The translations under genes were made by a program, and so were the position numbers. From positions 1 to 64,000 of the forward strand of contig LNEI01000011.1 of NCBI GenBank assembly GCA_001464455.1: DNA of 64,000 nucleotides, written 5' to 3'. This document shows, piece by piece, positions 1 to 34,595 of this stretch (position 1 is the stretch's first letter; each line of letters opens with the position of its first letter). Under the pieces are notes generated by a model. The model saw only the letters and a list, made by a program, of their open reading frames with translations, was not told where the DNA came from and did not search any database. Source of the DNA: Acidobacteria bacterium Ga0077534. GTDB lineage: Bacteria > Acidobacteriota > Blastocatellia > Pyrinomonadales > Pyrinomonadaceae.

Positions 1-2543
1 AAACTGATCGTCCCCTGCGGAACCCCAGCCCCCGGCGGATTCGCCGCCACCGAACCAGTTATCGTAAACGTCTGCCCATACGTCGGTGCATTCTGCAAGG
101 TCTGAACGACCGTGGTCGTATCGGCCTTGTTGACCGTCAACTGGAAGGTCGCAGGCGTCTGAGCCCCGCAGTTGTCGGTCGCTCGAATCGTGATCGTATG
201 CGTACCAACTGGTCCGGCGTTCGAGATCGAGACGACCCCTGCGGCATTCACGGAAACGCTGCCCGTGAAAGTTCCCGTCGACTGTACCGCAATACTCGTA
301 ACCGAGCCATTATCGGTCGGCCCCGTCGTGGGATTTACCGCAATTCCTGATTGTCCAAAGACAACCGAAGGAGGGTTCGTGTAAGTGAGAACCGGGGGGC
401 TATTTGGCGTGACCGTCACGGTCAGGATCGCATTTGCCGTTAACCCGCCGCCGTCTGTTACCTGAAGGATGAATGATTCGGTACCAGCTCCACATGCCGC
501 AACCACATCCGCCGTGATCGTTCCATTTGTGTTGAGCAAATTCGAGATAGATATGCCGTTGTCGGTAGCCGCCGCTCCGCCATTGACCGTAACGGTCAAA
601 GCTGCGACAGGTGTCTCGAGATCACCGACCGTAGCGATGGTCGAATTCGAAGCTGGCAGACCCGCCTGCCGGGTTACTCCAACTGCGGCGTTTATGGTCG
701 GGGGCGTATTGGACGGGAACGAGAAACTAAGTATCCGCGTGCGCCAGTTGAATGAGCCCGTTGGAGATTGGTACTGGTTGATGTACCAGAATGTCGTATC
801 GTCCGCGGGATCAACCTGCATCGTTGTATAGTCGCCCCATCGGCTAGTTCCGCTCGTTTGCGAACCTGTACCTGCGAATGCGATCTGTTCGGCCTGGAGC
901 GTGTTAAGCGGGTCGGTCGATCTCCTGCCCGTCACTGCTATCGAGGGAAAGGTGGTCGAACTGGAAATGCTATACCCAAACAGGATATCCCCGTTTGCGT
1001 TCATCGCACCGGAACCCATCCATCGACTTTCCGTAGTACCTGGTGAAAATGTGCCGCTTTGGTAAACAAATGGTCGATTCGCGACGACGGCGTCGGCCGG
1101 ATTATTGAGCGGATTTCTGATCTCGAACCACTGAAGGGCAGCTCCTTTTCCGCCCGCTCCATCGGGGTCGACCGACTGCGTAACGATGAGGCTATCGACC
1201 CCGGCGCGGTTACGATATGCCAAACGATACATATGGCGGCTACCAAGCGTATCAAGTAAGTTAGCGGTGCCACTTTGGGGCACACAAGCGTTTCCATTGT
1301 CACCGCAAGTTGCGATAAGCGTGCCCAACGCAAATGGAACAAACGAGAAAGCCGCTCCGCCATAACCGTCCGTGAACGTAGAATTGGCAGGGGTGACAAA
1401 GTCAGGCTTTAGGCGAGACCAGCGCATCGTATACGGAGGTGCTAACGTGAACGCCCAGTTCCAGTCAAGGAACAACCCACCTCGCGTCGTATCCGTCGGC
1501 GGTGTTGAACCGTCAATGTCCGCGGGAAGCATGCTAAATCGAGTGGTACTGTTGAAACATATCTGCGGAGCGGATACTGCTCCGGCGATCATTGCGTTGC
1601 GATCATATGCACACGCCCTCGCTCCAGAGAAAGTTTCTCCATTGAGGAACATATTGTAGGAAATGTAGTAGGCATCATTCCAAATGCCGATTTTGCCGTA
1701 GTCGGGAAGTTGATTTCCGAAATTGTACTCATAAAGAGAATAAGTGCCAAGGGGATCGGCGGTCGTCGAGACAGCGACACACTGGGCGTTTTGCGAAAAC
1801 GAACCGTTAAACGCAAACTGGCTCAGCACCCAGCGATTGGCGATGCGATCATACTGAACGATCGGGTCACCTCGGTTGAAATCTCGGCATAGGCTGCCCG
1901 GGGGCAGTCCGCTCCAGATCTGATTACCTGCAAGGAAAGTCGGTGGGGGCAGAAGAGGATTTCCCGCCTTATCGAAGATCATCAAGTTGGTATTCACCCA
2001 TGCGATGATGTGGTTTGGCCCAACCGCGATCGTCGGGTCGGGCGGTGCCAGATTTACGGTATATCCCGCTATGCCGGTTCCCGGCCCTTCGAAACTCGCT
2101 CCCAGTGTTGCGGCGGATGGCGCCAGAGCTTCAGTTTGCAGAAACGTTTCAACTAACGGTCCCATGGCAACGCCGGGTTTCGCCTCGCGTTTGAGCTGCC
2201 TAATCGCCTCCATCGCGACCTCGTCCTTTCGCGTTTTGTCGTTCTCCGGCGGCACTCGGGGAATGTTTTTCTCTACGATAGAGACCAGCGTATCCGACAC
2301 AGCGAAGAATTCCGGCCTGATAACGATCGGCTTTTCATCCTGTTTTGCCTTTCTGGACGCGAGTATCGTCGATTTGACCTTCTTTAGCCGATCAAGCCGA
2401 CGTTTTTCCTCAGCTTTGCTGACCTTGGTCGCCTTGGTCATACTCGGGCCCTCGGCACGACTCTGACCGGGCACAGACATTGTGCCGAGACCGAAAATAA
2501 AGGACATTATCGCGGATGCAAGGATCAGGTTACGTGTTTTCAT
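1..2543 (-). CDS. Large secreted protein with bacterial Ig-like repeats (3' end cut by window)
   Basis: An open frame of about 847 codons runs from the ATG at 2541-2543 to the window edge without a stop. Residues 1-27 form a clear signal peptide (MKTRNLILASAI, then hydrophobic, ending near GQS). A lysine/arginine-rich linker follows, then a region with PPDPTIAVGPNHIIAWVN and WYINQYQSP that resembles secreted sialidase/propeller-type proteins. From about residue 615 the sequence becomes Ig/cadherin-like (SPPVLTYTNPPSVVFG, DNCGAQTPATFQLTV), and the last visible stretch (ADTTTVVQTLQNAPTYGQTF) is typical of a Big_3-type Ig-like repeat. Probable extracellular surface or matrix protein; ligand unknown. 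The + strand ORFs across it are shadows. Confidence 0.8.
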   Translation of the reverse strand, partial: MKTRNLILASAIMSFIFGLGTMSVPGQSRAEGPSMTKATKVSKAEEKRRLDRLKKVKSTILASRKAKQDEKPIVIRPEFFAVSDTLVSIVEKNIPRVPPENDKTRKDEVAMEAIRQLKREAKPGVAMGPLVETFLQTEALAPSAATLGASFEGPGTGIAGYTVNLAPPDPTIAVGPNHIIAWVNTNLMIFDKAGNPLLPPPTFLAGNQIWSGLPPGSLCRDFNRGDPIVQYDRIANRWVLSQFAFNGSFSQNAQCVAVSTTADPLGTYSLYEYNFGNQLPDYGKIGIWNDAYYISYNMFLNGETFSGARACAYDRNAMIAGAVSAPQICFNSTTRFSMLPADIDGSTPPTDTTRGGLFLDWNWAFTLAPPYTMRWSRLKPDFVTPANSTFTDGYGGAAFSFVPFALGTLIATCGDNGNACVPQSGTANLLDTLGSRHMYRLAYRNRAGVDSLIVTQSVDPDGAGGKGAALQWFEIRNPLNNPADAVVANRPFVYQSGTFSPGTTESRWMGSGAMNANGDILFGYSISSSTTFPSIAVTGRRSTDPLNTLQAEQIAFAGTGSQTSGTSRWGDYTTMQVDPADDTTFWYINQYQSPTGSFNWRTRILSFSFPSNTPPTINAAVGVTRQAGLPASNSTIATVGDLETPVAALTVTVNGGAAATDNGISISNLLNTNGTITADVVAACGAGTESFILQVTDGGGLTANAILTVTVTPNSPPVLTYTNPPSVVFGQSGIAVNPTTGPTDNGSVTSIAVQSTGTFTGSVSVNAAGVVSISNAGPVGTHTITIRATDNCGAQTPATFQLTVNKADTTTVVQTLQNAPTYGQTFTITGSVAANPPGAGVPQGTIS

Positions 2544-3013
2544 GGCTTTATGTTGAGCTAGTTGGTCTTTCGCTTGAGAAACCTCGGAACCGACGGCAGC
2601 GGGTATGAAAATACGAGGGCCCATCGTTTCGCGGAACAGTCTACTTTCTACTAATGTCGTTAGGTACGAGAGAAATATACTCGACAATCCGAATGGAAAC
2701 AAGCTGGTGAGCTAGATTGATCAATACGCTCGTGATCGTTCGTTCCGTACTCAAATCAAGTAGATGCTCCAATGGGTGGTGACCTGCGGCGCGAACAGGT
2801 TCAAGTACCGTCATAACGGCAGACCTTCGGCGTCGGCAAGTTCGGACGGTGAGGCAAACCTTTGGCGCGAGGCGGCAAGGTGATCTTTGATATGAACTAC
2901 CATTGCGGTGAGCGTTTTTAGGAGTAGTGCGACTTCATATCCAACGGGAAAAGGCCCCAGCTTTCGCAGAGGCCCTTTAAGGCTGCAGGAAACGTGAGGG
3001 TGGTCGCTCGCCC
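2544..3013. other. Gene-free spacer between clpX and the Ig-like protein gene
   Basis: About 470 bp with no convincing reading frame. It holds the clpX terminator at its right end and must contain the promoter of the leftward Ig-like gene. I see no repeat or RNA gene in the rest. Confidence 0.5.
2949..2978 (-). terminator. Rho-independent terminator after clpX
   Basis: Read on the minus strand, GGCCTCTGC and GCTGGGGCC pair around a GAAA tetraloop with one U-U mismatch. The stem is preceded by AAAG and followed by TTTT. It lies about 35 nt past the clpX stop. Confidence 0.85.
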
Positions 3014-4261
3014 TTAAGCGGCTTCCTCGGTTCGCGTTACCACTTCAAAAACTGGCACCTTCTTCTCGATCATTTCCTTGGTGATAACGATCTCTTTGAC
3101 TGAACGTTCGGTCGGGAGGTGGTACATTGACTCGAGAAGGATCTCTTCGAGTATCATCATCAGTCCGCGTGCTCCCACCTTACGTTTATGAGCTTCGCGG
3201 GCGACGGCGGCGAGGGCCGAATCAGTGAATTTCAGGGATATATTATCGAACTCAAACTTTCGCTGATATTGCTTTACCAGAGCATTCTTGGGCTTCGTCA
3301 AGATTGAGACAAGCGCGGCTTCGTCAAGTTCACTTAAGGTTCCTATTACCGGCAGCCGACCGACAAATTCAGGAATGAGCCCATACTTAATTAGATCCTG
3401 TGGCTCCATCTGGTGGACGAAATCATCCTGCCGCTGTTTCGTTGTTTTAACATCAGCCTGGAAACCGAGCGATTTATTGCGGAAGCGCTTCTCGATAACT
3501 TTTTCGAGGCCGATAAAAGCCCCTCCGCAAATGAACAGGATGTTTGTCGTGTCAAGCTGATGAAAATCCTGCTGAGGATGCTTGCGACCGCCGCCAGCGG
3601 TGGGGATGTTCGCAACGGTACCTTCGAGGATCTTTAGAAGTGCCTGCTGTACACCTTCACCCGACACGTCGCGGGTTATCGAAGGATTGTCATCCTTGCG
3701 GCAGATCTTGTCGATCTCATCGATGTAGATGATCCCAGTTTGAGCTTTTTCGATGTCACCACCCGCGGACTGGAGCAGACGATTAAGGATGTTCTCGACG
3801 TCCTCACCGACGTAGCCGGCTTCGGTAAGGCTCGTAGCGTCAACGATGCAAAATGGTACCGAAAGCACCCGAGCAAGCGTTTGCGCAAGTAAAGTTTTGC
3901 CGGTTCCGGTCGGCCCGATCAGCAGAATGTTAGATTTTTGAAGTTCGACGTCGCTGCGCCGTTTGGCCATTTCCAGTCGCTTATAATGCTGGTAGACCGC
4001 TACGGCGAGCCGCTTCTTAGGTTCATCCTGACCGATGACATACTCATCAAGATGGGCCTTGATCTCGTGGGGTTTCGGCAGGTTTGTCCGCGGCCCGGTC
4101 GTCGCCTGCTGTTCATCGTCGTTGATGATCTCGTTACAAATGTCTATGCATTCATTACAAACATAGACACCCGGGCCGGCGATCAATTTACGGACATCGT
4201 TCTGCGATTTGCCGCAGAATGAGCATGAGAGCAGTTCTTCGTGACGATAGAATTGGGCCAT
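3014..4261 (-). CDS. clpX: ATP-dependent Clp protease ATP-binding subunit ClpX
   Basis: AAA+ unfoldase that recognises, unfolds and threads substrates into ClpP in the cytoplasm. I chose the ATG giving [20 protein letters not shown] (415 aa, normal family length); an upstream ATG at 4318 would add 19 atypical residues. The N-terminal zinc-binding domain has Cys13, Cys16, Cys35 and Cys38. Walker A is GPTGTGKT (116-123) and Walker B IIYIDEID. The substrate loops GYVG and GGGRKHP are intact, as is the LGF loop that docks on ClpP, and the sensor region [11 protein letters not shown]. It is the last gene of a tig-clpP-clpX operon, 88 bp behind clpP, and ends at a strong terminator. Confidence 0.97.
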
Positions 4262-18055: not shown

Positions 18056-18134
18056 GTCGGTACCACCTGCGGTAACGGGTGAGGTCTTAGACGCGGCTCA
18101 GAAGTCCCCACCCGCTATCGCAGGTGGTACTGAC
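18056..18134. repeat. Inverted pair of REP hairpins between recG and rsmD
   Basis: A forward copy at 18056-18084 (GTCGGTACCACCTGCGGTAA...) and a reverse copy at 18106-18134 lie head to head. Each contains the CCACCTGC-loop-GCGGGTGG hairpin of the RAYT-linked family; the first is somewhat decayed (GGTAACGGGTGA). Confidence 0.85.
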
Positions 18135-18721: not shown

Positions 18722-19686
18722 TGAAAAACGTCATCGTCTGGCTAATTCTCTGCCTCATCTGGGGCTCGACCTGGATATTTATCAAGGTCGGCCTCGAAGA
18801 TCTGCCGCCGATCGCGTTTGCGGCTTCGAGATTTATACTCTCGATCTCGATCCTGTTTCCGGTGCTGTGGTATCGAAAGATCGCTTTGCCGCGGACCGCT
18901 GCCGAATGGAAGCTGATCGCTCTGACGGGTTTCCTTCAGTTCTCGGTCAACTACAGCATGGTCTTCTGGAGCGAGGTTTATATCACCTCAGGATTAGCCG
19001 CCGTCCTGCAAGCAACGATCTCCGTTTTCGGCCTTCTGCTTGCTTGGATATTTCTACCGCACGAGCGGATCACAAAGCTAAAGATAACGGCGGTCGTGAT
19101 CGGCATTGCCGGTGTTGCGATCATTTTTGCCGATCAGCTCCGCGTGCAGAGTTTAATGGCATTCCTCGGCAGCGTCGCGATAGTGGTCGGAGCGTATGCG
19201 GCGGCCCAGGCCTCGATCCTCGTGAAAGCAAAAGCTGGCGATATTGAGCCGCCAGCGTTGCTGTTCGGACAAATGCTGTGCGGGCTTCCTCCGATTCTCA
19301 TCTATAGCCTAGTCGTTGAAGGAAATCCGTTGACGTTTAACTGGACGTGGAAGGCGATCGCGTGTGTTCTTTTTCTGTCGATCGCGGGAACTATTGCCGC
19401 ATTTTGGATGTACTACTGGCTGCTGAACCGAATTGAATCAACAAAAGCAATGATGATCTCGCTCGTCACGCCGCTGCTCGCCGTGGTCATTGGATGGGCG
19501 TTTCTGGGCGAAACGCTCCCGCCCCAGACAGGCATCGGCGGATTGCTGATCATATCTAGCGTGGCGTTGATCGCATTTCGACGACGGTCCGTACCACCTG
19601 CTGTAGTGGGTGGGGCATTTAACGTGAGGGACAAAACCCCGCCCGCTACCGCTGGCGGTACTGACTCAGTTTCGTCTCTGCGGTAA
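18721..19686 (+). CDS. EamA/DMT-superfamily transporter
   Basis: 321 aa with ten predicted spans in two EamA repeats (first LCLIWGSTWIFIKVGLEDLP; second near MLCGLPPILIYSLVV). The substrate is unknown; relatives export amino acids or metabolites. The real fold ends near LIISSVALIAFRRR. The last 30 or so residues (SVPPAVVGG... and TPPATAGGTD) are encoded by an inverted REP pair at 19587-19665, so the C terminus is repeat-derived. The stop falls 10 bp before aroC. Confidence 0.87.
   Translation: MKNVIVWLILCLIWGSTWIFIKVGLEDLPPIAFAASRFILSISILFPVLWYRKIALPRTAAEWKLIALTGFLQFSVNYSMVFWSEVYITSGLAAVLQATISVFGLLLAWIFLPHERITKLKITAVVIGIAGVAIIFADQLRVQSLMAFLGSVAIVVGAYAAAQASILVKAKAGDIEPPALLFGQMLCGLPPILIYSLVVEGNPLTFNWTWKAIACVLFLSIAGTIAAFWMYYWLLNRIESTKAMMISLVTPLLAVVIGWAFLGETLPPQTGIGGLLIISSVALIAFRRRSVPPAVVGGAFNVRDKTPPATAGGTDSVSSLR
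19587..19665. repeat. Inverted REP pair forming the 3' end of the DMT exporter gene
   Basis: The forward copy at 19587-19616 has stem CCACCTGC/GTGGGTGG with loop TGTA. The reverse copy is at 19637-19665. Both are read in frame, giving PPAVVGG and PPATAGG at the protein level. Confidence 0.85.
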
Positions 19687-19695
19687 GATGAAAAC

Positions 19696-20985
<1,290 letters not shown>

Positions 20986-20998
20986 GGATCAAGAGTGA

Positions 20999-21027
20999 GT
21001 CAGTACCACCTGCGGTAGCGGGTGGGG
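20999..21027 (+). repeat. REP hairpin, left flank of RAYT gene
   Basis: GTCAGTA then an 8-bp stem CCACCTGC/GCGGGTGG with GGTA loop. It starts 13 nt after the aroC stop. Confidence 0.9.
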
Positions 21028-21052
21028 CTCTCAAGATGGGAATTGAGAATTT

Positions 21053-21562
21053 ATGTGGAACGATGCGGACACACCCATTGCATACTTGATCACCTTCCGA
21101 TGTTATGGAACCTGGTTACACGGCGACGAACGGGGATCAATTGACCGTCACAACAACAAATTCGGATCACCAAAGCACCCTGCAACACCGCACTGGCAAC
21201 AAATAAGTGCAGATCGCCTGAAACAGCCCTCGGTCAAACTAGACATCATTCGAAGAACAGTCGTCGAGCGGGCGATTCGCAACGTTTGCGACAGGCGGGG
21301 CTGGCATCTGCATGCCACAAATGTGAGGACAAACCACGCTCATTCGGTAGTAGACAACCCCGGAAAACCATCGGGAATTATCCTGAATGCCTTTAAGGCG
21401 AATGCCACAAGGGAGATGCGGGAAGCCGGATGCTGGACCTCCGATCGCTCGCCTTGGGCTGATAAAGGAAGTCAGCGGCGTTTGTGGAACGAAACGCATC
21501 TTTTTAATGCAGTAGACTATGTTTTGAATGGACAGGGCGATGATCTACGTAAGTTTGAATAA
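21053..21562 (+). CDS. REP-associated tyrosine transposase (RAYT, Y1/IS200-like)
   Basis: 169 aa, apparently complete. The start PIAYLITFRCYGTWLHGDER is a hallmark of the RAYT subgroup of Y1 transposases. The HUH metal site is His95-Ala-His97 in VRTNHAHSVV, and the nucleophilic tyrosine is probably Tyr156 in NAVDYVLNGQGDD. SPWADKGSQRRLWNE also matches the subgroup. Known relatives nick and process single-stranded REP hairpins and are usually single-copy domesticated genes. The flanking inverted REPs fit this role. The second residue of the HUH (Ala) and the Ser after it differ from the commoner HVHVVV. Confidence 0.9.
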   Translation: MWNDADTPIAYLITFRCYGTWLHGDERGSIDRHNNKFGSPKHPATPHWQQISADRLKQPSVKLDIIRRTVVERAIRNVCDRRGWHLHATNVRTNHAHSVVDNPGKPSGIILNAFKANATREMREAGCWTSDRSPWADKGSQRRLWNETHLFNAVDYVLNGQGDDLRKFE

Positions 21563-21578
21563 TCCTCGCCTTGGAAAG

Positions 21579-21607
21579 CCCCGCCCGCTACCGCAGGTGG
21601 TACTGAC
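21579..21607 (-). repeat. REP hairpin, right flank of RAYT gene
   Basis: Exact family consensus in reverse orientation (CCCCGCCCGCTACCGCAGGT...GTACTGAC). Confidence 0.9.
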
Positions 21608-21655: not shown

Positions 21656-22586
21656 CCGACTCGCAACGATCGCTCTTTTGGCGTTCGCTCTCCTCGCCTG
21701 CTCCAAACCAGCCGAAAAACCCGCATCCAATATGGCCGCCGCGCGTGAGGCGAAGAAGGAAAGGGCTGAGCTGCGCTCCAATATTAAGAAGATCGAGCCG
21801 TTTTTCAAACCGATGGGCAAGCCGCTGAGCAACGACTGGCTTGAAACGCACCACGAGCCGGGCCAAACCTTTGAGGAATATCTCGACGCCGATCCGGTGA
21901 AGCCGACTAAAGAACGGCAGAAGATCTACGTTTTGCCTTTGGGCAAATTTAACGCTAATCAGCAGAAGATCATCGACGTTACCGCAGAGTATTTAAAGGT
22001 ATTTTACGACCTACCCGTCGAGGAACTTACGGCCAAACCGCTCGTCGCGGTTCACCCGAATGTGAGACAGAATAAACTGACCAAAACCCGCCAGATCAAA
22101 ACCGGCCACATCTTGAACGACATTCTTAAGCCGCAGTTGCCGAACGATGCGGCGGCTTTGATAGCGTTTACGGTAGACGATCTTTATCCGAACGAGACCA
22201 TGAGTTATCTCTTCGGCCAGGCGAGCCTCGAGGAGCGCGTCGGCGTCTGGTCGCTCGCTCGGATGGACGACAATACGGACCAGCGGAATTTCCTGATCCG
22301 CACACTTAAGATCGCTGCTCACGAGACGGGCCACATGTTCTCGATGCGGCACTGCACAAAATACGAATGCCTGATGAGCGGCACCAATCATTTGCAGGAA
22401 ACCGACCGCCGCCCGATCGATGCGTGTCCGGAATGTACGGCTAAGATCTGCTGGCTTTCTGACGTCGATCAGGCGGAACGGTATAAAAAACTGGCGGATT
22501 TTTGCAGAAAGAACGGACTGGTGAAGGAAGCAGATGAGTTCGTGAAAAAAGCCGCCGCCGTAAATGCAGAAGCCCGCACGAAGTAA
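21645..22586 (+). CDS. Archaemetzincin-like zinc metalloprotease, lipoprotein
   Basis: 313 aa from the GTG at 21645, which gives a textbook lipoprotein signal (M-VLTRLATIALLAFALLAC, Cys19). The frame is open further back to an ATG at 21528, but that stretch is REP DNA. Zinc site: HETGHMFSMRHC at 226-237, then TKYECLM, then about 16 residues to CPEC. This is the archaemetzincin pattern HExxHxxGxxHCx4CxMx17CxxC, with Ser in place of the Gly. Likely a periplasmic membrane-tethered aminopeptidase-type enzyme. Both gene ends lie in repeats: the start in a REP, the stop in another palindrome. Confidence 0.85.
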   Translation: MVLTRLATIALLAFALLACSKPAEKPASNMAAAREAKKERAELRSNIKKIEPFFKPMGKPLSNDWLETHHEPGQTFEEYLDADPVKPTKERQKIYVLPLGKFNANQQKIIDVTAEYLKVFYDLPVEELTAKPLVAVHPNVRQNKLTKTRQIKTGHILNDILKPQLPNDAAALIAFTVDDLYPNETMSYLFGQASLEERVGVWSLARMDDNTDQRNFLIRTLKIAAHETGHMFSMRHCTKYECLMSGTNHLQETDRRPIDACPECTAKICWLSDVDQAERYKKLADFCRKNGLVKEADEFVKKAAAVNAEARTK

Positions 22587-22593
22587 GGGCTCT
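22564..22593 (+). repeat. Second palindrome family, forward copy at the archaemetzincin stop
   Basis: ATGCAGAAGCCCGCACGAAG followed by TAAGGGCTCT: GCCC/GGGC stem around a CGCACGAAGTAA-type loop. The TAA of this loop is the stop codon of the upstream gene. Confidence 0.8.
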
Positions 22594-32759: not shown

Positions 32760-34595
32760 ATGCGAATGCTGGTGATACTTCATCTCTTCGCTCTCTTCCT
32801 GCTCGTTGGGCTCGGGTTCTATGTTTTCGTTAACGACCCGCGAAAGCGGGCCAATCAAACGTTCGCGGCATTCATCGCGTTCCTCGCGATCTGGACCACT
32901 AAAGACCTCATTTTCTGGAATTTCTACCCAAGAAACTCGACCGCCGGTTGGTGGGCATCGGCAAGCTTCATTACCGCACTGCTCATGCAGTACGCAATGG
33001 TCGTATTTGCATGGGTCTTCCCGGAGGACGCGAGAACCCCTCGCCGCCGTGCCGCAGTACTTTTTGCCCCCGGCCTGATCTTCATTCCCGCGACACTTTT
33101 CGGACTTTTATGGCAGAAAGTAGGTTTCGATGAAGGGCGATTTGTTATCGAGCTCACGCCGCTCGCTTATGCTTTCGTCGGGTACGTCTACGTCGTGTTC
33201 TTTTTCGGCGCTATTGTTCTGTTTCAGAAATACCGCAGATACACAGGCACACAGCAAGGTCAACAGGTCGGGGCAATAATATGGGGACTCGCCATTACCG
33301 GTCTGCTAAAGACCCTCGCAAACATCGCACTTCCCTTTTTTGGCAACTACGATCTGCTCCCTTTGAGTGCGATCTTTGTGCTTCCGGGCGTGCTGATCTA
33401 CGCGTACGCCATTCTAAATTTCAAACTCTTCTCGCTGCAGACGGCCCTCAATCAGTTTCGGCTTTTCCCGATCACCTACAAGGTCGCGCTGACCATCGCA
33501 ACGGTCGCGATAGTCAGCTTTGTACTTTTTCAGATACCTATCGTCTGGTGGGCTTTTCGCAACGGCATGGACGAGGAGGCCTGGCGACGCTACCTCGTTT
33601 TTAGTGTGATCTCGGCCCTGGTCCCCAATTTGCTACTTTTGCTTCTCGTACTACGTACCGTCTCTCGCCCTTTGCAGAGGATCACGCTCGCGGCCGTCAA
33701 GGTCGCGAAGGGTGCATACGGAACCGAGGTCGATCTTCGAAAAAGTAATGACGAGATCGGGCTGCTGGCCAGTTCATTCAATGAGATGAGCCGAAAGATG
33801 GCTTCGGACATCGAAGAACTGCGTCGACTGAACAACCAGCTCATCCATGCAGAAAAGCTCGCTGCGATGGGTACGCTCGCTGCCGGAGTCGCCCACGAAG
33901 TAAACAATCCGCTTGCCTCGATCTCCTCGCTCGTCCAGATGATGCGTTCGCAGGAAGGGCATTCCCCTGAAACCCGCGAAAAGCTCAATATGATCTCCGA
34001 ACAGATCCAGCGAATAATTCAGGTCACTAAAGACATGACTAATTTTGCTCGATCGAGACCTGCAGCGAAAACTGACGTCGACGTCAACGCGGTGATAAAA
34101 ACCGCTCTCCGTCTCGCGAGCTTTGACAAGGCTTTTCAGGATCTGGACGTGGAAACAAAACTCGCAGAAGGGCTTCCAAGGGTTCACGCCGACGAGGACC
34201 AACTTCAACAGGTGTTTCTAAATCTTCTACTGAACGCAAAAGACGCCATGCAGGAAATGCAGAAGCCCGCACGAAGTAAGGGCTCCGTTGGCTCACGGGG
34301 CGATGAGGATTCCAGCATGCGCGTCGGGCTGGCCGAAAGATCGATCCTGATCTCCACCAGCCATACTGGCGATGCGGTGATCGTCCGCGTATCTGATACC
34401 GGCACAGGCATCGACGAAGCAGTGGTTGGCCAAATCTTTGACCCCTTTTACACCACGAAACCGGCCGGCAAGGGAACAGGTCTCGGCCTTGCTGTATGTT
34501 ACGGGATCGTTACAGCCCACGAAGGACGGATCGAGGTCACCGGCAACGCACCAAATGGCACGACCTTTACGGTTTCGCTGCCTGCCCGACACTAG
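32760..34595 (+). CDS. Sensor histidine kinase with multi-span N-terminal sensor
   Basis: 611 aa. Eight or so membrane spans fill residues 1-310 (7TM-type sensor region), followed by HAMP (about 320-370). The phospho-acceptor is His379 in GVAHEVNNPLASI. In the ATPase domain the N box is LLLNAKDAM, G1 DTGTGID, F box FDPFYTTKPAG and G2 GKGTGLGLAV. Oddity: between the N box and the next strand (about 500-525) lies an unconserved insert, KPARSKGSVGSRGDEDS, whose DNA is a copy of a palindromic repeat found at 22.6 kb. No response regulator is adjacent, so it is an orphan kinase. Confidence 0.92.
   Translation: MRMLVILHLFALFLLVGLGFYVFVNDPRKRANQTFAAFIAFLAIWTTKDLIFWNFYPRNSTAGWWASASFITALLMQYAMVVFAWVFPEDARTPRRRAAVLFAPGLIFIPATLFGLLWQKVGFDEGRFVIELTPLAYAFVGYVYVVFFFGAIVLFQKYRRYTGTQQGQQVGAIIWGLAITGLLKTLANIALPFFGNYDLLPLSAIFVLPGVLIYAYAILNFKLFSLQTALNQFRLFPITYKVALTIATVAIVSFVLFQIPIVWWAFRNGMDEEAWRRYLVFSVISALVPNLLLLLLVLRTVSRPLQRITLAAVKVAKGAYGTEVDLRKSNDEIGLLASSFNEMSRKMASDIEELRRLNNQLIHAEKLAAMGTLAAGVAHEVNNPLASISSLVQMMRSQEGHSPETREKLNMISEQIQRIIQVTKDMTNFARSRPAAKTDVDVNAVIKTALRLASFDKAFQDLDVETKLAEGLPRVHADEDQLQQVFLNLLLNAKDAMQEMQKPARSKGSVGSRGDEDSSMRVGLAERSILISTSHTGDAVIVRVSDTGTGIDEAVVGQIFDPFYTTKPAGKGTGLGLAVCYGIVTAHEGRIEVTGNAPNGTTFTVSLPARH
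34257..34286 (+). repeat. Second palindrome family copy, in frame in the sensor kinase
   Basis: Nearly identical for 30 bp to the copy at 22564-22593 (AGAAGCCCGCACGAAGTAAG core) but read in a different codon frame (QKPARSKGS). Confidence 0.85.

Follow-up and report, generated by a model that had tools for sequence, protein, structure and literature searches.

A Y1 transposase gene framed by inverted REP hairpins in an Acidobacteriota genome, and related REP dimers lying in frame within genes

The stretch of DNA analysed here (the window, 64,000 nt in full) carries, in this order, recG, rsmD, the gene of an EamA transporter, aroC, a RAYT gene and the gene of an M54 peptidase. Between positions 18056 and 21655, nine hairpins of one superfamily were found (0-5 mismatches in 27), four of them on the plus strand, starting at 18056, 19587, 20547 and 20999, and five on the minus strand, at 18108, 19639, 20641, 21581 and 21629. 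No further hairpin was detected in the rest of the 64 kb at up to 9 mismatches in 27, and ten shuffled consensuses used as a control gave 6 matches in total, all with 9 mismatches. All nine copies named in the original prediction are present, with positions within 2 nt. That prediction had also described further copies on each side of the RAYT gene; seven of these exist, but they are one-sided, six lying upstream and one downstream. The features are collected in Table 1.

Table 1. Features of the window, with positions counted from its first letter.
Feature	Position	Strand	Remarks
Y1/HUH tyrosine transposase gene (class 3 TnpAY1 / RAYT-like)	21053..21562	+	intact ORF, 169 aa, HAH, Y156, Y----Q
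T-class REP, left bracket of RAYT gene	20999..21025	+	foot GTCAGTA
T-class REP, right bracket of RAYT gene	21581..21607	-	1 mismatch to left bracket, feet outward
Extra T-class REP, altered loop	21629..21655	-	4 mismatches; overlaps likely start region of M54 gene
79-nt T-class REPIN, between recG and rsmD	18056..18134	.	two REPs, feet outward
79-nt T-class REPIN, 3' end of EamA gene	19587..19665	.	in frame; C-terminal SVPPAVVGG...PPATAGGTD
121-nt A-class REPIN, inside aroC	20547..20667	.	in frame; SEPPASAGG...PPAHAGGSD
Third-class REP	22567..22590	+	foot CAGAA; class framing RAYT on contig C27
Third-class REP	34260..34283	+	foot CAGAA

A complete RAYT-type gene with HAH and Tyr156 had been predicted between inverted hairpins, and this was borne out by the intact 169-aa ORF and by bracketing arms (20999-21032 and 21574-21607) that are 94% complementary. 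When folded as single-stranded DNA, the left arm leaves its foot GTCAGTA unpaired and forms an 8-bp stem, CCACCTGC/GCGGGTGG (z -2.85), and the REPIN between recG and rsmD folds end to end (z -5.88). Over 16 REP copies, 95.3% of stem cells pair, compared with 39-67% in slid controls, and the third stem pair varies on both sides (A-T, G-C and C-G). The nine hairpins could not be kept as a single class, as two classes (T and A) were found among them. The two copies in aroC (20547 and 20641), which had been taken for hairpins of the window RAYT, have the foot GTCAGAACC and the loop GTNA, and match instead the REPs on either side of a paralogous RAYT (contig C13). The aroC insert is missing from the aligned chorismate synthase chain, and the EamA gene of a relative (L131, 75% identical) is without the REP repeat at its 3' end. 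In other relatives (L120, L126, L128 and L133), the EamA-aroC spacer is filled by other inverted repeats, of the CCACAGATGAACACAGAT type. The REP downstream of the RAYT gene covers the probable translation start and the signal-peptide region of the M54 product, and a GTG within it may be the start codon.

The catalytic residues of the window RAYT are H95-A96-H97 and Y156, and Y156 forms the Y----Q signature together with Q161. In an alignment of the RAYT family (A4, 75 rows; four loci with a stop inside, L040, L071, L099 and L112, and two near-duplicates were left out), R92, N94 and H95 were invariant, and H97, Y156 and Q161 were each conserved at 90% or more. The Pfam Y1_Tnp score of the window protein is weak (18.4 bits vs a cut-off of 23); at a threshold of E 10, the domain was listed for 15 of 15 scanned family members, with a best E of 1.2e-10. 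An AlphaFold model of the protein (pLDDT 86.9) places Y156 within helix 147-160. Among the families listed by VIA-align 2, the model matched the IS200/IS605 transposase 2ec2 with Z 13.4 and TnpAREP 4er8 with Z 9.9 (3.0 A over 117 residues), and the predicted fold is thus nearer to IS200/IS605 transposases (Z 12-13) than to 4er8. A sequence search of the PDB with the RAYT alignment returned a single, unrelated match (E 0.72), and the Y1 transposases came from the fold search.

The genome (G000) comprises 32 contigs that total 4.20 Mb. With a covariance model trained on 16 copies, at least 118 REP copies were recovered at E up to 0.01, a lower bound because the model scored 150 of 2537 first-look candidates. 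A degenerate T pattern, which catches A copies too, was found at 136 places with up to 3 mismatches, against 1 in a reversed control. The T class reads GTCAGTACCACCTGCGGTAGCGGGTGG and the A class GTCAGAACCGCCTGCGTNAGCGGGCGG; a third class, CRGAAGCCCGCACG, was found at 68 places vs 1 in the control. There are three RAYT homologues, the other two being 53% and 46% identical to the window protein, and each has its own REP class: the paralogue on C13 is framed by A-class arms with the foot CAGA, to which class the aroC pair belongs, and that on C27 by third-class REP arms. A C27 arm alone folded no better than shuffles (z -0.57).

REP neighbours within 150 nt of each other formed 33 outward pairs, 0 inward pairs and 8 tandem pairs. 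A REPIN consists of two inverted REPs around a spacer, and all 33 of the 33 neighbours in opposite orientation had this arrangement with their feet outward. The 12 nt before the foot showed no sharp target site, except that C is scarce at -1: C precedes the GTC foot in just 3% of copies, and A, G and T each account for about a third. The search for a clean empty site between near-identical flanks gave none, and the ends of the REPIN and any target preference are therefore provisional. T-class REPs also recur every 66 nt in one orientation at three places (L181, C10:301332-301490; L198, C18:389654; L208, C31:324), where the ORFs that hold them read GSVPPAVAGG-xLGRT-type units. A T-class REP follows LDDGxxLxxGPA at a matching position in similar ORFs of L189, L190 and L202 (C16:157882, 159721, 163277; C19:158361), an arrangement that was probably copied by gene duplication.

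The crowding of hairpins around the window RAYT had been read as a centre of REP spread. The 118 copies fall into 77 units, and the cluster itself is real: five independent units lie in 3.6 kb, the densest group in G000, and 0 of 5000 uniform placements reached five. A density check with a covariance model had been proposed, and the at least 118 copies are indeed densest at the window RAYT, but neither of the other two RAYTs has such a cluster. Within 5 kb of the C13 gene, the model found its own two arms alone, and within 5 kb of the C27 gene it found no REP copies. The second densest cluster (8 copies, C19:956-3402, near a contig end) is on a contig that carries none of the three RAYTs, and lies within one M1-peptidase ORF of 1083 aa (L149, C19:1-4200, ORF 442-3690 minus) that contains four REP units of T and A class in frame. 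Across 69 loci of the RAYT family, the density of own-type REPs was 3.48 per kb within 500 nt of the RAYT (237 copies in 68.1 kb, of which up to 138 are the arms themselves) vs 0.03-0.06 per kb beyond (4 copies in 66.4 kb, 4 in 128.5 kb and 5 in 120.6 kb in successive zones). More than two own-type copies were present at 41 of the 69 loci. Extra REP copies directly beside a RAYT are common, and a long cluster as in the window is unusual. The idea that RAYTs in general are surrounded by a 3-kb centre of REP spread was rejected, since own-type copies drop beyond 500 nt in the 69 loci. The cluster may reflect chance or an insertion-tolerant aroC region, independent of the RAYT, an explanation that we place somewhat short of an even chance. 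The almost equally dense C19 cluster, the mixture of two REP classes in the window cluster and the scarcity of own-type copies beyond 500 nt all point that way, whereas the uniform placements argue against it, as does the crowding of REPs near RAYTs in Marinomonas REPtrons, as described in the available part of that report (PMC8266576).

A RAYT of the window family was detected in 69 of 119 genomes of the host family (E up to 1e-8). When the REP pattern was counted on both strands with up to 2 mismatches, the median was 25 copies in the 69 RAYT-positive genomes and 2 in the 50 RAYT-negative genomes (Mann-Whitney p 1e-6), and 10 or more copies occurred in 50/69 vs 15/50 genomes. In the remaining 19 of the 69 RAYT-positive genomes, fewer than 10 copies match the pattern, and some family REPs have other stems. 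Within the genus alone, the medians were 31.5 (34 RAYT-positive genomes) and 2 (7 RAYT-negative genomes), a difference that falls short of significance (p 0.09) owing to the 29, 93 and 138 copies in three RAYT-negative drafts of 81-87% completeness; among genus genomes at least 90% complete, the difference is significant (25 vs 4 genomes, p 9e-4). The expected tie of hairpin to RAYT was therefore seen in the medians, but 15 of the 50 RAYT-negative relatives keep 10 or more copies. A profile search of these 15 genomes revealed RAYT fragments in 2 and nothing in 13. Judged from these sequences, REPs can evidently outlive or lack a RAYT, though some RAYT-negative genomes are incomplete drafts.

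Such REP-rich genomes, with RAYT fragments or none, would also be expected if the repeats were fossils, that is, if the RAYT no longer acts, the copies persist by descent and gene conversion keeps their arms alike. The five 121-nt REPINs of G000, whose spacers look diverged and whose arms look alike by eye, are consistent with this explanation, as is the single TAG contained in the C13 RAYT (L002 1501-1995 = C13:54584-55078), the class of which, A, is still numerous. The window RAYT, however, is intact with all its catalytic residues, its two arms hardly differ from the genome consensus, and 43 copies match the degenerate T pattern without a mismatch. We therefore regard fossil repeats as possible but rather doubtful, and consider that the hairpin repeats are probably spread by the enzyme that they frame.

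A scan of named genomes returned, among the best 80 of 325 loci, Acidobacteriota titles, many of them from Pyrinomonadaceae or Blastocatellia, together with one Planctomycetota (Botrimarina) and two loci from one record with the bare title 'bacterium'. After 5 of the 80 loci with short flanks had been left out, framing inverted arms were found at 69 of the 75 loci that have 200 nt or more of flank on each side. The foot CNG[A/T]A was present at 68 of the 69 framed loci, compared with 7 in a reversed-sequence control, and CNGWA was the best of 64 xNyWz foot motifs (next 49, median 12). The fourth place of the foot is A (CNGAA) at 39/69 loci and T (CNGTA) at 29/69. This letter clusters on the RAYT tree, with 15 changes vs a shuffled mean of 21.4, and 2 of 300 shuffles were as low. 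Because the letter changes 15 times on the tree, the pairing of RAYT and foot letter, as read from the aligned loci, is loose and far from fixed. Residues 30 and 41 of the protein are a weak lead to the columns that may read the foot letter, relatedness not having been corrected for.

It is unlikely that the system is an ordinary IS200-like insertion sequence, in which the hairpins would be terminal inverted repeats and the dimers internal-deletion remnants (MITEs), with nothing domesticated. The RAYT unit does have outward-facing ends like those of the dimers, and the predicted fold is closer to IS200/IS605 transposases than to TnpAREP, as stated above. Nevertheless, three transposase genes stand against at least 118 repeats, and the divergence of the paralogues from the window protein indicates that they are not recent copies. 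A RAYT (62% identity) with T-class arms and an extra stretch of ~1.2 kb also lies between aroC and the M54 gene in a relative (G076), an arrangement that looks vertical. In six genus members (L119, L128, L130, L131, L134 and L142), aroC is followed by the M54 gene with no RAYT between them.

The original prediction did not include placement inside genes, and yet two of the window pairs, 19587-19665 and 20547-20667, lie in frame in coding sequence. Of 75 REP units in G000, 33 are located within an ORF of 300 aa or longer, no fewer than 20 codons from either end; the 75 units are those of the window and of 62 further sequence stretches, the two arms of the C13 RAYT being left out, and host ORFs were judged from stop to stop over ~900 nt on each side, some of them being partial. 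Of the 50 copies in these long-ORF units, 46 share one phase, and 29 of the 33 units are wholly in this main phase (p 1e-5 vs an even split), 4 being off phase or mixed. The main phase reads S-V/E-P-P-A-x-A-G-G on entry and P-P-A-x-A-G-G-T/S-D on exit, and REPs within genes would thus be translated as short linker peptides rich in Pro, Ala and Gly. In the T-class consensus, a second same-strand phase is stop-free too, yet it is hardly used. Dimer length is 1 mod 3 in 15/16 intragenic dimers vs 9/19 others (p 0.004), and the 121-nt dimers are all intragenic and in frame (5/5 vs 11/30 other dimers, p 0.013). The loop codon of A-class arms read in the S-E direction is TCA, TTA or TCG in 11/12 cases in long ORFs, whereas it is TAA or TGA in 25/34 A-class units outside long ORFs and stop-free in 9/34 (p 1e-4 vs intragenic). 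Where the ORF runs through the A-class arm in the opposite direction, in which the loop gives no stop, TAA or TGA still occurs in 8/12.

Relatives were sampled from listed places and not at random (16 stretches in G001, 4 in G026, 20 in G045, 16 in G057 and 4 in G061). In G045, 16/23 units lie in long ORFs with 20/24 copies in phase, and in G057, 5/19 units with 9/9 copies in phase. No sampled unit lay in a long ORF in G001, which represents another genus of the host family (0/17), in G026 (0/4) or in G061 of the same genus (0/6). At the level of sequence, the in-frame habit is apparent in G000, G045 and G057.

Hosts of intragenic REPs include AroC, LeuS, MutS2, and MetG-, PurH-, DnaE- and UvrA-type proteins. 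When host proteins are aligned to solved homologues, the insert interrupts the alignment of four: 2-282 / 321-428 in AroC, 7-279 / 317-440 in an aldehyde dehydrogenase, 53-249 / 289-772 for the first insert of MutS2, and 2-257 / 302-503 in an ABC exporter; the LeuS insert and the second MutS2 insert are in poorly aligned stretches. When 20 further host ORFs were scanned, Pfam domains were found in 16 and none in 4, the former including, besides the PurH-, DnaE-, UvrA- and MetG-type proteins, a phosphoglucomutase/mannomutase (PGM), a Mur ligase, a UDG-superfamily protein, an M1 peptidase, an Eco57I-type enzyme, an ABC exporter, A2M and others. Going by the best stretches printed, 12 of the 16 have the insert between Pfam domains or outside them; in the PGM host, it lies between domain I (ends 195) and domain II (starts 220). 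Four have it within a domain, namely the PurH, S58-peptidase and Eco57I-type hosts and the off-phase PAD host. Most of the inserts checked in G000 fall in loops or where domains join.

The AroC loop after VHDEI was compared at 30 loci of genus members, from 38 genomes with a match (L125 partly N), and measures 21-54 nt in 17 and 84-153 nt in 13. Among the long loops, REPs of the window superfamily occur in L118, L119, L120 and L126, and other palindromic sequences elsewhere, by eye. Both MutS2 loops used in G000 likewise carry other palindromic sequences in other species, by eye, in a comparison of 20 relatives out of 38 with a match. The first MutS2 site is short in G082, G063, G051 and G054; the span between flanking motifs is 30-32 residues in 4 of 21 rows vs 60 in G000. 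Because different species carry different palindromic sequences there, the AroC and MutS2 loops seem to tolerate repeated insertion. Other palindromes lie in frame in MutS2 loops (L231-L249) and AroC loops (L122, L127, L129 and L130) of the genus; one encodes SPPYEGGVAAASADGVVLS, and another SEPGAIATGF, like a REP class with the stem GGGAGC. It is very unlikely that selection for a function, either of the linker peptide or of an mRNA hairpin, maintains the in-gene copies beyond mere tolerance: the strong one-phase bias and the varied palindromes of the AroC and MutS2 loops would fit it, but the hosts are unrelated, no function common to them was seen, and the loops at these sites are short in many members of the genus.

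We consider it fairly likely that, taken as a whole, a class 3-like Y1 enzyme spreads REPIN dimers and that the in-gene copies are insertions filtered by selection. The enzyme would belong to the TnpAREP/RAYT type of single-tyrosine HUH endonucleases, its nearest group being class 3 TnpAY1. We infer its mode of action by homology with E. coli TnpAREP and IS200/IS605: it would bind the hairpin in single-stranded DNA, read the unpaired 5' foot, here CNG[A/T]A instead of GTAG, and cut and rejoin single-stranded DNA at both outward feet of a dimer, which is proposed therefore to spread as a non-autonomous element. One genome could hold several such enzymes, each with a different hairpin class. The most likely cause of the in-gene pattern would be random REP insertion followed by purifying selection, much as proposed for Rickettsia RPEs: copies that shift the frame, carry a stop or enter the fold core would be lost, and stop-free copies in tolerant loops would survive. 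More tentatively, some class 3 REPIN subfamilies might be mobile translatable linker cassettes, adapted to ORFs and diversifying protein loops, and protein-coding palindromes of the Rickettsia type might also be REPINs of Y1 transposases. This suggestion, which we hold to be improbable as yet, draws on the stop-free phase, the lengths of 1 mod 3, the asymmetric arms and the in-frame placement of all five 121-nt REPINs.

How palindromic repeats enter conserved genes has been a puzzle since the Rickettsia RPEs, for which the available accounts name no proven mobilising enzyme. Here a candidate enzyme can be named together with its hairpin classes, and a single genome supplies about thirty in-frame units, with a contrast case in the related genus, where 0/17 sampled units are in long ORFs. 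With a candidate transposase, the spread of protein-coding palindromes becomes testable. The REP foot, moreover, is not fixed across the family, and its letter partly follows the enzyme tree.

Classical RAYT/TnpAREP systems with GTAG REPs and REPINs are known from E. coli, Pseudomonas and Stenotrophomonas. The window system resembles them in the HUH-Y1 fold, the inverted REPs around the gene, the outward dimers, and the combination of few genes with many REPs. It differs from these class 2 systems, the foot of which is GT[AG]G, in its foot GTCAGTA and in its many intragenic copies. The proposed likeness to a REP/RAYT system stands as regards a cognate hairpin of many copies with a non-GTAG foot, but membership among classical GTAG RAYTs was rejected on the basis of that foot and of the NCBIfam REP_Tyr_transpos score (21.6 bits vs a cut-off of 80). 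Unlike IS200/IS605, the system lacks multiple near-identical transposase units, and G000 has three divergent genes; a plain insertion sequence was rejected because the paralogues are too divergent.

The system was best fitted by the little-studied 'class 3' TnpAY1 group (Quentin 2018, PMC6006769), an assignment made from the published description and not from direct comparison with published class 3 sequences. In the available text, class 3 is characterized by Y----Q, CnGA feet and, in Solibacter, ~600 hairpins with three genes, and occurs principally in Planctomycetes, Acidobacteria and Proteobacteria (PMC6006769). The window RAYT shares the Y----Q signature (H95, H97, Y156 and Q161) and the extended N-terminal conservation, the flanking hairpins are similarly numerous (at least 118) with several genes per genome, and the window family is found, among the best 80 of 325 loci, in Acidobacteriota and one Planctomycetota. 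As regards the foot, the window arms read CAGT (the T form), the C13 paralogue CAGA and the family CNG[A/T]A, compared with the CnGA described for class 3. Intragenic copies occur here, whereas the text available for class 3 has no mention of intragenic placement (PMC6006769).

TIRYT/TIRtrons of Acidobacteria also consist of tyrosine transposases with inverted repeats at both ends, but the accessible description sets them apart by long TIRs unrelated to GTAG repeats (PMC3733652). REPs inside genes have been described before, with uvrA, dnaE and tRNA synthetase genes among the hosts, and two Xanthomonas species carry different REPs at roughly one site of recB, in the parts of that report at hand (PMC3733652). 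RPEs inside genes are known from Rickettsia (PMC2229807, available in part), and RPE-4 and RPE-6, which are CGTC repeats, are said in the accessible text to lack a dedicated transposase (PMC3733652). Like RPEs and intragenic REPs, the repeats studied here are in-frame palindromes in conserved genes and form dimers; unlike RPEs, as far as these are described in the available text, they frame a candidate cognate gene, have a different foot and belong to the phylum Acidobacteriota. Among the matches listed in a literature search that covered mostly papers outside subscription, no report tied in-frame REPs to a class 3 transposase. The kind of repeat is thus already known, from intragenic REPs and Rickettsia RPEs, and what is new is a variant for which a candidate transposase has been identified.
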